NCBI RefSeq assembly: GCF_002938435.1
Contig: NZ_POQT01000018.1
Location: 19,412 to 83,411 of the forward strand
Direction: 5' to 3'
Source of the DNA: Blastococcus saxobsidens
GTDB taxonomy: Bacteria > Actinomycetota > Actinomycetes > Mycobacteriales > Geodermatophilaceae
Length of the DNA: 64,000 nucleotides
Shown piece after piece: positions 493 to 33,658 of the stretch. Position 1 is the first letter of the stretch. Each line of letters begins with the position of its first letter. The notes under the pieces are model-generated. The model had not been told where the DNA came from, did no database searches, and worked only from the letters and a program-made list of their open reading frames with translations. The position numbers and the translations under genes were made by a program.

Positions 493-1185
493 GTGGACGA
501 CGTCTTGCGCCAGCTCAGCCGGGTCGCCTTCGCCGGCCGTGAGCTGTCCGACGTGCTCGGTGACATCACCGGTATCGCGGCCGGCGCCATCCCCGGTGCG
601 GAGGCGGTGTCCAGCACGCTGATCCGCGACGACAAGGCCTTCACCGCTGCCTACTCCGGCGAGATGGCCCTGGCCGCCGACGAGCTGCAGTACGCGCAGG
701 GCCACGGCCCCTGCGTCGACGCCGGCCGCGGCGGGGTGGTGCTGCGCATCGACGACATGCGCACCGAGCAGCGCTGGCCCGACTACGTCGCCCGGGTGCT
801 ACGGGAGACGGACGTCCGCAGCTCGCTGTCGGTGCCGCTGCCCTACCAGGGCTCCTCCATCGGGGCGCTGAACGTCTACTCGACGAAGCCGACGGCCTTC
901 GCCTCCCCCGAGTCGCTGGCCGCCGGGCTCGAGGTCGCGGAGACGATCGCGGTCGCCGTGGCCAACGCCGACGCGCACGCGCAGCTGGTCGACCAGGCCC
1001 GCAACATGCGCATCGCCATGGAGTCGCGGGCGGTCATCGAGCAGGCCAAGGGGGTCCTCATGGCCCAGCGGCACTGCACCCCCGAGCAGGCCTTCGAGAT
1101 CCTGCGGCAGGCCTCGCAGCGCTACAACCGAAAGCTGCGGGAGATCGCCACCGGCATCGTGGAGGGCGTGCAGGAGGGGGCCTGA
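493..1185 (+). CDS. GAF and ANTAR domain antiterminator/sensor
   Basis: A 230-residue protein with an N-terminal GAF sensor domain (about residues 15-150) and a C-terminal ANTAR RNA-binding domain (about 165-225: AVIEQAKGVLMAQ followed by the three-helix EQAFEILRQASQRYNRK segment). ANTAR proteins bind paired hairpins in nascent RNA and prevent termination; GAF-ANTAR pairs are abundant in actinobacteria. I chose GTG 493 because homology begins at VDDVLRQLSR; an upstream in-frame ATG at 373 would add 40 low-complexity residues. No strong Shine-Dalgarno is visible before 493. It ends 6 nt before the convergent nucleoside hydrolase remnant. Confidence 0.85.
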   Translation: MDDVLRQLSRVAFAGRELSDVLGDITGIAAGAIPGAEAVSSTLIRDDKAFTAAYSGEMALAADELQYAQGHGPCVDAGRGGVVLRIDDMRTEQRWPDYVARVLRETDVRSSLSVPLPYQGSSIGALNVYSTKPTAFASPESLAAGLEVAETIAVAVANADAHAQLVDQARNMRIAMESRAVIEQAKGVLMAQRHCTPEQAFEILRQASQRYNRKLREIATGIVEGVQEGA

Positions 1186-1191
1186 CGCAGG

Positions 1192-2143
1192 TCAGAGGCG
1201 GGGGTCCAGCCGGCACAGCCGCTGCACCAGGAACTCCACCGCCGTCTCCGGGTCCACCGTCTCGGCCACCTCCACCGCGGTCGCCGAGGAGGAGACCGAC
1301 CGGCGGTCGACCAGCGTCTGCCCCCCGGCCGGCACCCAGCGTGGTGTCGACGACGACGTCGCGGCGCACCGTGCCGAGGGTGCCCGGGACGATGGCCTCG
1401 GTGAGGGCCAGCGCGTCGTGCACGACGACGCCCGGCGTCCCGTAGACGTCCTTCGCGTGGTCGACGTACTGCTGCAGGATGGCCGCGGCGGTCCGGCCGA
1501 CCGGCCCGGCGGCCGCGAAGCGGGCGATGCCCTCCTCGGTGAGCACCGTGGGCAGGGTGACGTCCAGCCCCACCATCACCGTGGGCAGGTCCGCGCCGAA
1601 CACCGCCTGCGCGGCCTCCGGGTCGGACCAGATGTTGAACTCGGCCGCGGCCGTCACGTTGCCGCCGCACCCCGCGGAACCGCCCATCACCACCAGTCGC
1701 CCGATGCGGGCCGCGGCCTCCGGGAAGACGGCCAGCAGCAGCGCGACGTTCGTCAGCGGACCGATGGCCGCCACCGTCACCGGGGTGGGCGAGGACATCA
1801 GCAGCTCGGCCAGCGCGACGACCGCCGGCCGCGGGTCCACGGCGGTCGGTGACGGCGGCAGCTCGACCCCGCCCAGGCCGGCCGCGCCGTGCACGTGGCC
1901 GGCCCGCTCCGGCTGGGGATGGATGAGCGAGGCCCGCGCGCCCACGGCCACCGGCACGTCCGACCGGCCGGCCAGGTGCAGCACCCGCAGGGCGTTCTCC
2001 GTGACCTGCTCGAGCCCCACGTTGCCGTGCACCGTGGTGACCAGCCGCAGGTCCACCTCGGGACTGGCCAGAGCGAGCAGGACGGCGAGGGCGTCGTCGA
2101 TGCCGGGGTCGGTGTCGATCACCAGGGGGATGCGCTCGGTCAC
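1192..2143 (-). pseudogene. Inosine-uridine preferring nucleoside hydrolase, frameshifted near the C-terminus
   Basis: The N-terminal 270 or so residues are a clear nucleoside hydrolase. The metal-binding IDTDPGIDDALA motif is at residues 9-20, with VAAIGPLTNVALLL and the family EFNIWSDPEAA segment further on. These enzymes hydrolyse N-ribosides to base plus ribose. The reading frame breaks at a run of six C on the plus strand (1321-1326). One base fewer would restore QTLVDRRSV and an ending of LCRLDPRL with a TGA at 1192-1194. As given, translation continues in the wrong frame to 1058, antisense inside the GAF-ANTAR gene. A homopolymer sequencing error is a real alternative to true decay. 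The gene shares strand and orientation with the truncated permease upstream. Confidence 0.8.
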
Positions 2144-7854: not shown

Positions 7855-11976
<4,122 letters not shown>

Positions 11977-11980
11977 GGTC

Positions 11981-12067
11981 AGCTCCCTACGCCGGCATTA
12001 CCCGGACAGGTTCCAGCGGTCGGCGGCGCAGTCAGCCGCCCTCTCAGCCCGGTCGACCCGAGCTCCC
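11981..12067 (-). promoter_or_regulatory. TPP riboswitch (THI element) upstream of cytX-thiOSG
   Basis: On the minus strand the conserved parts occur in order: GGGCTGAGAGGG, a P3 stem with GGCGGC...GCCGCC, GACCGCTGGAACCTG, GGGTAATGCCGGCG and AGGGAGCT. P1 pairs AGCTC (5') with GAGCT (3'). The 3' strand of P1 carries GGGAG, the Shine-Dalgarno of cytX, so ligand binding should hide the ribosome site. A TACAGT -10 hexamer (12089-12084 on the minus strand) lies just upstream. Confidence 0.95.
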
Positions 12068-12083
12068 GCACACGTGCGTCGGA

Positions 12084-13358: not shown

Positions 13359-13379
13359 GCGCTTGCTACCTTCGGCCTC

Positions 13380-13454
13380 GACACGGGGTGCCCGCGCACC
13401 GGGCTGAGATGACACCCGTCGAACCTGCCCAGGTCATGCTGGCGAAGGGATGTC
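13380..13454 (+). promoter_or_regulatory. TPP riboswitch (THI element) upstream of thiM-thiE-thiD
   Basis: Conserved segments in order: GACACGGGGTG, GGGCTGAGATGACACCCG, GAACCTG, GGTCATGCTGGCG and AAGGGATGTC. P1 pairs GACA (13380-13383) with TGTC (13451-13454). The Shine-Dalgarno-like GAAGGG lies in the 3' part of the aptamer, 8 nt before GTG 13457, so translational control is again likely. Confidence 0.95.
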
Positions 13455-13456
13455 AC

Positions 13457-14254
13457 GTGGACGTCGACGCGCTCGCGGCCGCTCGCGCGGCGCTCCGCAC
13501 GAGCAGCCCGCTCGTGCACTGCCTGACCAACACGGTGGTGCAGACGCTCACCGCCAACGTGCTGCTCGCCGTGGGCGCCGCGCCGGCGATGGTCGAGGCG
13601 CCCGAGGAGGCCGGCGACTTCGCCGCGATCGCCTCGGCGCTGCTGGTGAACGTCGGCACGGTGCACGGGCGCTCCGCCGAGGCCATGCGCGTCGCCGTCC
13701 GCTCCGCCGCGGCGGCCAAGACACCGTGGGTGCTCGACCCGGTGGCCGTGGGCGGCCTGCGGTTCCGCACCGACCTGGCGGTCGACCTGGCGGGCGGTGG
13801 GCCGGCCGTGGTGCGAGGCAACGCCTCGGAGGTCATGGCCCTGGCCGGCGCCGGTGCGGGCGGGCGCGGGGTGGACTCCACTGCGACCGCGGACGATGCG
13901 CTGGACGCCGCCGCCGCACTGGCCGCGCGCACCGGCGGGGTCGTCGCGGTCAGCGGCCCGGTCGACGTCGTCACCGACGGCTCGCGGGTCGTGCGGGTCG
14001 GTGGCGGGCACCCGCTGCTGACCCGGACGACGGGGGCCGGCTGCGCGCTGGGCGCGCTCACCGCGGCGTACGTCGCCGTGGCCGGGGACCGCCTGACCGG
14101 TGCGGTGGCGGCGCACGCGCACGTGGCGCTGGCCGCCGAGGCCGCCGCCGCGGTGTGCTCGGGACCGGGCACCTTCGCGGCGGCCTGGGTGGACGCGCTC
14201 GACGCGGTGACCGCCGACGACCTGCTGCGCGCCGACCTCCGGGACGAGTCGTGA
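13457..14254 (+). CDS. thiM: Hydroxyethylthiazole kinase ThiM
   Basis: A 265-residue ribokinase-fold kinase that phosphorylates hydroxyethylthiazole for thiamine salvage. Seen: [41 protein letters not shown] and the anion-hole/catalytic [18 protein letters not shown] 13457 follows the TPP riboswitch directly. Its TGA overlaps the thiE GTG (GTGA). Confidence 0.93.
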
Positions 14255-32829: not shown

Positions 32830-32998
32830 CCGGCGCCGCGGTCAGGAGCTGCGGACGGCGAAGTGGTGAGGGCGAACAGGGCGATGCTCACCCGGGCGAG
32901 CGCCGGCGGCATGGGTGCGACGGTAGCGACGCCGGGCTGCCGGGCGAGCCATCCGCCCGCCCGCGCGCTTCGGTGCCGACCTCCCTACGGTGGAGGTC

Positions 32999-33658
32999 AT
33001 GGACAGCTCCGACCTGCTCGCGCTGCGGACCGACGACCGCGCGGCCCTGCTCCTCGTCGGCCTGCGGGGCGACTGGTAGCCCTACTGCTGCGCCCAGGCG
33101 GTCCGTCTGGCCCAGTCGTCGTCCCGGCTCGCTGCTGCGGGTACCGAGGTCGTGCTCGCCTCGGTCGATCCACCGGAGGTGCAGCTGGCCTTCGACCACA
33201 CCTGGCGCGTCCCCTACCGCTGGGTGAGCGATCCCGACGGGTCCCGGCTGGCCCGTCCGCTGGACGCCTGGGACCAGGACGCCTCGATCTTCCGGCCGGT
33301 GGTCGTGGCGGTGGGGCCGGACGGCGGCGAGGTGTTCCGCGAGCGCTCCCGCGACTTCACCGACCGCCCCGACGACGAGCCGATCCTGACCGCCGTCGAG
33401 CGGCTCGGCCTCCCGGCGCTGCCCGAGCCGGGACCGTGGACCCTGGACGGCGTCGACCCGCGGCCGTCCGAACGCGCGTTCACGCCGGCCTCGTTCATCC
33501 CCTACTTCCGCGCGATCAAGTTCAACACCCTCGCGCTGAGCGAGCGGATGGTCGACGAGCGGGACCGGGACGAGGTGCTGACCGAGAACACCATGGCAAT
33601 CTCCTTCCTCGACGCGTTCGACGCCTGGCGCGCCGAGCACCCACCGCGCGGGCAGTGA
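32999..33658 (+). CDS. Peroxiredoxin-like (AhpC/TSA-type) protein with in-frame UAG at the catalytic Cys/Sec site: candidate UAG-encoded selenoprotein
   Basis: ATG 32999 follows GGAGGTC. Read through one TAG (33077-33079, codon 27), the frame gives 219 residues with high third-position GC on both sides of it. The context is LVGLRGDW-*-PYCCAQAVRLAQ, which matches the family pattern RGxW-C-PYCxxQ, so the TAG replaces the peroxidatic Cys. The downstream region (VVLASVDPPE, VPYRWVSDPDGSRLARPLDAW) continues the thioredoxin-like fold; a longer C-terminal tail is unassigned. TGC or TGT cannot become TAG in one step, which argues against a simple nonsense mutation. A SECIS-like hairpin lies at 33094-33110. 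UAG-directed selenocysteine is known in Geodermatophilus and Blastococcus. Likely role: thiol/selenol peroxide reduction with a U-P-Y-C centre. Alternative: a pseudogene. Confidence 0.82.
33094..33110 (+). promoter_or_regulatory. Bacterial SECIS-like hairpin downstream of UAG
   Basis: CCAGGC (33094-33099) pairs with GTCTGG (33105-33110), six base pairs including one G-U, around loop GGUCC. The first loop G is 21 nt past the TAG. Bacterial SECIS elements lie inside the coding sequence directly after the Sec codon, with a small apical loop containing conserved G near this distance. SelB binding is inferred only. Confidence 0.55.

Follow-up and report, generated by a model that had tools for sequence, protein, structure and literature searches.

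A peroxiredoxin-like gene family of Blastococcus and its relatives with a conserved in-frame UAG predicted to encode selenocysteine

UAG-directed selenoproteins of Geodermatophilus and Blastococcus were reportedly described by Mukai et al. in 2016, a study that appears among the references of PMC7609411. According to PMC5330540 (Santesmasses et al. 2017), that work covered formate dehydrogenases and UGSC-motif proteins and not the AhpC-like gene; PMC5330540 itself describes an AhpC gene with a TAG for selenocysteine (Sec) in Blastococcus saxobsidens DD2, together with a tRNA-Sec(CUA) and a bacterial SECIS element (bSECIS). That UAG specifies Sec in Blastococcus is also stated in PMC5133445. 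The earlier note on the DNA studied here had mentioned reports of UAG-directed selenoprotein synthesis in both genera. Peroxiredoxin-like thiol:disulfide oxidoreductase selenoproteins with a UxxC motif appear as UGA-coded in a table of PMC13188914.

The gene analysed here lies in a window of 64,000 nucleotides from B. saxobsidens and is a further member of the published case. Among the 15 AhpC-TSA matches of the DD2 genome (G008, name inferred), a TAG is present in only one, the orthologue of the window gene, with 85% identity; very likely, it is the gene described in PMC5330540. The two cases have the genus, the fold family, the TAG at the Sec site, the CUA tRNA and a downstream hairpin in common. 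However, DD2 is counted as another species, and PMC5330540 names one genome, whereas we followed the gene through its family and phylum. With the UAG selenoproteins of 2016 our case shares codon, anticodon and taxon, and TAG formate dehydrogenases are also found in its own genome. The peroxiredoxin-like selenoproteins tabulated in PMC13188914, which are likened by description only, have PF00578 and UxxC in common with the window protein, but they are UGA-coded in that table, in contrast to the UAG of the window gene and its family. What we add is the family-wide fixation of the codon, its one-time switch in the tree, a signature in the loop codon, a frameshift that recurs in the hairpin, and one relative with an additional tRNA-Sec(UCA) on a mobile-looking island; we do not claim that these are absent from print.

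The complete predicted selenoprotein frame (32999..33658, plus strand) is backed by the frame itself, its domain, its orthologues and a structure model. It consists of an ATG at 32999, 25 codons, an in-frame TAG at 33077..33079 (plus strand), 192 codons and a TGA at 33656-33658. When U is assigned to the TAG, the product has 219 residues and includes GDWUPYCCAQ, in which the predicted Sec is residue 27 and the first residue of UPYC. Residues 16-109 match Pfam AhpC-TSA (PF00578) with 43.1 bits at a cut-off of 26 bits, whereas the SelL-related redox protein family NF040769 scored 20.4 bits, below the NCBIfam cut-off of 120. Translation and domain match thus confirm the frame of 26 codons, GDW-TAG-PYCCAQ and 192 more codons of an AhpC/TSA-like fold that had been read from the letters. 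The predicted structure has the peroxiredoxin-like AhpC/TSA fold, extended at its C-terminus by two long helices (163-183 and 187-213). Structure libraries were compared against the whole model. Identity to protein disulfide isomerase and to peroxiredoxins of known structure (AhpE, Bcp) was 11-20% among the matches listed, and these matches leave the two C-terminal helices of the window protein uncovered. A single-sequence search of solved structures gave weak matches to protein disulfide isomerases (best E 0.00057), and in the alignment to protein disulfide isomerase the TAG falls on the first cysteine of CGHC; a profile search of solved structures, with a profile lacking most N-terminal columns, gave no match.

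When the whole window was crudely scanned for TAG codons flanked on both sides by GC3-rich, coding-like open frame, the TAG of codon 27 was the only one to emerge. Since every one of the 13 same-genus copies, its own included, also has exactly one TAG, this codon sits in a coding frame beyond what chance would give. Codon-position differences from the window gene, calculated over 25 family copies (of the 28 without a frameshift, L073-L075 were left out), were 0.114, 0.025 and 0.297 for positions one, two and three before the TAG and 0.119, 0.105 and 0.319 after it, which points to protein constraint on both sides. Unlike the 26 protein-conserved codons before the TAG, the 60 nt before the ATG had 0.68 differences per site (ungapped). 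Elsewhere in the window there are two TPP riboswitches, at 11967-12079 (minus strand) and 13374-13467 (plus strand), about 1.3 kb apart and on opposite strands.

Within the genus, the gene was found in 13 of 23 genomes, with the TAG always at codon 27; the other 12 copies are 73-85% identical to the window gene. At family level it occurred in 30 of 112 genomes. The TAG is in frame in 28 of these copies, which come from five genera and share 72-85% identity with the window gene; the remaining two keep the TAG but have lost one base just after it. At order level, 27 of 397 evenly sampled genomes gave a match, and the sole match outside the family (genome G044) has TGA and 50% identity. In a phylum sample of 396 genomes, 38 had a match (40 matches in total). 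The profile used at this level had 185 positions and lacked the N-terminus, and the codons were therefore taken from the flanking sequence. While 10 of the 40 matches came without a locus, the 29 loci read besides the window's own have TGA (25) or TGC (4). Outside the family, 30 relatives were thus read altogether, 26 with TGA and four with TGC. The orthologue alignment at codon 27 proposed beforehand therefore holds only TAG, TGA or TGC in the relatives read, and the TAG indeed occupies a Cys/Sec site, where relatives have TGA or TGC. A protein search of plasmids yielded no match, and a search of viral contigs yielded no relative.

The 33 aligned TAG rows include the own gene twice (L023, L182), the named records L157 and L158 and the two frameshifted loci (L070, L071). 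In a tree of 60 rows, from which L182, L070 and L071 were left out, there is one change from TGA to TAG, with a support of 100/99, and the TGA gene of G044 adjoins the TAG clade. The four TGC rows group together among TGA rows. As the tree has several long branches and a midpoint root, its deep placements are unsure.

The genome from which the window is taken (an assembly of 4,523,459 bases in 86 contigs) carries selD, selC, selA and selB in one cluster on contig C15 (11850-15906). Its selC scores 65.8 bits against the Rfam tRNA-Sec model (cut-off 47) and has the anticodon CUA; ARAGORN labels this tRNA ‘tRNA-Pyl’. All four genes that a genome-wide check was to look for are therefore present and adjoining. 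The tRNA-Sec anticodon is CUA in all 23 genomes of the genus and in all 25 other family genomes chosen (17 with the gene, 8 without), i.e. in 48 of 48 family genomes tested, whereas G044, the nearest TGA relative, has a tRNA-Sec(UCA). In the genomes checked, the codon tracks the anticodon of the tRNA. Formate dehydrogenase follows the same pattern: two genes for this enzyme in the own genome carry an in-frame TAG at QARI-U-HS (L172 on G000:C3 and L178 on G000:C25), DD2 and G001 have two each and G106 has one, which makes seven genes in four family genomes, while the formate dehydrogenase of G044 has TGA. The 10 of 23 same-genus genomes that lack the peroxiredoxin-like gene yet retain tRNA-Sec(CUA) may do so for the sake of formate dehydrogenase. 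As a separate observation, two actinobacterial plasmids (NZ_CP110115.1, locus L212, and NZ_LR134459.1, locus L213), one of which is typed as conjugative, carry a tRNA-Sec-like match that is surrounded by selA, selB, selD and genes for formate dehydrogenase.

The start region differs from what had been expected. The earlier note had seen a strong ribosome binding site, but the GGAGG lies only 2 nt from the window ATG, and just 2 of 25 orthologues have a GGAGG or AGGAG among the 14 nt that precede the start; a conserved Shine-Dalgarno site was thus rejected. Conserved instead is a -10-like TANNNT hexamer, which 20 of the 25 orthologues have with its end 6-7 nt ahead of the start. It is found at -12..-7 in 19 of them and at -13..-8 in one, the window gene itself (TACGGT, 32986..32991, plus strand), and at none of the other offsets tested from 6 to 40; the other five orthologues have CATNNT at -12..-7. 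Because a -10-like element is conserved so close to the start, the sequences suggest a leaderless mRNA that would begin at or beside the ATG. In the databases, the gene is represented in truncated form, as had been forecast. Gene calls start a product of 168 aa at an internal GTG inside the conserved frame, so that the statement that the downstream part has no start of its own was too loose. In the 120 database relatives listed, the alignment never begins ahead of residue 33, and the active-site motif around the Sec residue is missing from every one of them.

Downstream of the TAG, we found a hairpin that is a candidate bSECIS element (33092..33111, plus strand). Its stem of 7 bp pairs 33094-33100 with 33104-33110, its GUC loop (33101-33103) lies 21 nt after the TAG, and the predicted energy is -15.3 kcal/mol for 48 nt. 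As quoted in PMC13188914, the bSECIS model is limited to a loop of 3-9 nt, an upper stem of 4-16 bp, a G in the first two loop positions, a distance of 16-37 nt from the Sec codon and a minimum free energy of at most -7.5 kcal/mol; the window hairpin lies within all the limits quoted there. Stability alone was rejected as evidence, as the hairpin does not stand out from shuffled sequences in this respect (z -0.63, 54 of 200 as good). Apart from CGT/CGC exchanges, codons 29-38 are identical in the 25 orthologues, compared to third-position differences from the window gene of 0.297 in codons 4-26 and 0.319 in codons 41-130. Counted over unique rows, the codon in the loop is GTN in all 27 TAG rows and in 23 of 25 TGA rows, and GCC in all four Cys rows; these rows are related by descent, and the pattern is to be taken as a signature and not as a statistic. 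Ten distinct sequences (six TAG, four TGA) were picked for a common register, with 22 other TGA loci that fold differently left out, and in these ten all 60 cells pair, compared to 8-48% in slid controls. One pair occurs as G-C, G-U, C-G and U-A. However, changes on both sides were seen in only one of the six pairs, a count that shuffles reach in 292 of 500 cases. Judged by eye, most of the other TGA loci have a hairpin in a different register that surrounds the same codon, in many cases with GGUC as its loop.

Several other explanations for the TAG have to be weighed against decoding as Sec. It could be a plain nonsense mutation, in a pseudogene or between two unrelated short frames, and gene callers do end or start frames here, and 2 of the 30 family copies are frameshifted. 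This is nevertheless exceedingly improbable and was rejected, as the same in-frame TAG is kept in the other 28 copies of five genera, the codon-position differences reveal protein constraint on both sides of it, and relatives have TGA or TGC at this codon. The ARAGORN label might indicate that UAG is read as a different amino acid, such as pyrrolysine or that of a suppressor tRNA. Yet the CUA tRNA scores clearly as tRNA-Sec, it is located between selD and selA-selB, and the relatives' codon is TGA or that of Cys, so that we consider such a reading very improbable and have discarded it.

It is also conceivable that translation begins at an internal start and yields nothing but the downstream part, as in the database annotation of 168 aa. 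An in-frame GTG is available for this, and the 120 database relatives listed are all short forms. However, the active-site motif would be missing from such a product, as would the first strand and helix 28-38 of a confident model, and the protein-level conservation of the 26 codons ahead of the TAG does not extend into the 60 nt that precede the ATG. On the strength of the conserved N-terminal codons and the missing core elements, this alternative, too, has been dismissed as highly improbable. We favour the reading that the UAG of codon 27 is decoded as Sec by the cell's own tRNA-Sec(CUA), likely via SelB and the downstream hairpin, to give a predicted full-length peroxiredoxin-like selenoprotein with a U-P-Y-C centre, to which we assign, judging from sequence comparisons, a probability of roughly 0.95. 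The sel cluster, the CUA anticodon and the TAG/TGA/TGC column support the selenoprotein that the earlier note had predicted.

In the mechanism we propose, SelA would make Sec on the tRNA-Sec(CUA), and SelB would bind the GUC-loop hairpin and place Sec at the UAG; where this insertion fails, RF1 would terminate translation after 26 residues. Judging from fold and motif only, the protein may be a selenol peroxidase or a thiol-disulfide oxidoreductase, with Sec27 as the probable attacking residue and Cys30 (or Cys31) as its partner. Sec decoding is supported, but to call UAG reassigned goes too far. In 68 crude gene calls from 28 other loci of the own genome, the stops were 58 TGA, 6 TAG and 4 TAA; some of the six TAG may themselves be Sec codons, as two of the loci hold the UAG formate dehydrogenases, and two loci overlap slightly. 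Since UAG also ends other genes, its use here is a context-dependent recoding. Few genes seem to be terminated by UAG, and this rarity could make the codon easier to use for Sec. UGA is the stop codon of all 41 genes crudely called in the window, so that competition with RF2 may be a cause of the codon swap.

The two frameshifted copies, L070 (G268:C79) and L071 (G204:C14), belong to two genera (Modestobacter sp. DSM 44400 and Blastococcus sp. CT_GayMR19, names inferred). In both, a C run of the hairpin, the same one in each case, is shorter by one base, which breaks the frame, and the shortened form is a perfect 8-bp palindrome. Quasipalindromes are known as mutation hotspots, and the base loss is as expected of this mechanism. 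An assembly error is possible as well.

One family genome, G106, has a second tRNA-Sec. In addition to tRNA-Sec(CUA) and its UAG formate dehydrogenase, it carries a tRNA-Sec(UCA) of 81.8 bits at 1173-1263 (minus strand) of locus L136 (G106:C17:1-12000). About 315 nt away lies an AhpD-like frame (PF02627; L136 1579-2151, plus strand) with an in-frame TGA at 1870, in the context NRCFY-TGA-MESH and followed by a hairpin, which makes it a candidate UGA selenoprotein. The UCA copy is situated in a lower-GC stretch of about 5 kb with 59-65% GC, with matches to IS30/IS3-type transposases 6-9 kb away. The rest of contig C17 is of high GC with frames that look chromosomal by eye, which disfavours contamination. 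Neither selA nor selB was found in the 12 kb of C17 searched, and the tRNA is near the contig end. At the position of the TGA, the 120 AhpD-like relatives listed have Trp (56), Cys (33) or Leu (1), and 30 lie outside the motif; with Trp in 56 of them, the TGA may also have arisen from TGG by a nonsense change. Some of these Trp residues may be TGA translated with another code. We tentatively suggest, as a scenario that is less likely than not, that the family switched Sec once from UGA to UAG and that G106 then regained the UGA code via a mobile cassette. If this is true, two different stop codons would stand for selenocysteine within the same cell of G106.

As the mechanism has already been published for this family, the gain is one of detail and not of surprise. 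The comparison marks UAG as the Sec site in a peroxiredoxin-like family that is cut off by gene callers. The TAG/TGA/TGC column and the accompanying switch of the anticodon are a natural record of a stop-codon swap, and they provide the relatives in which one can ask why it took place.
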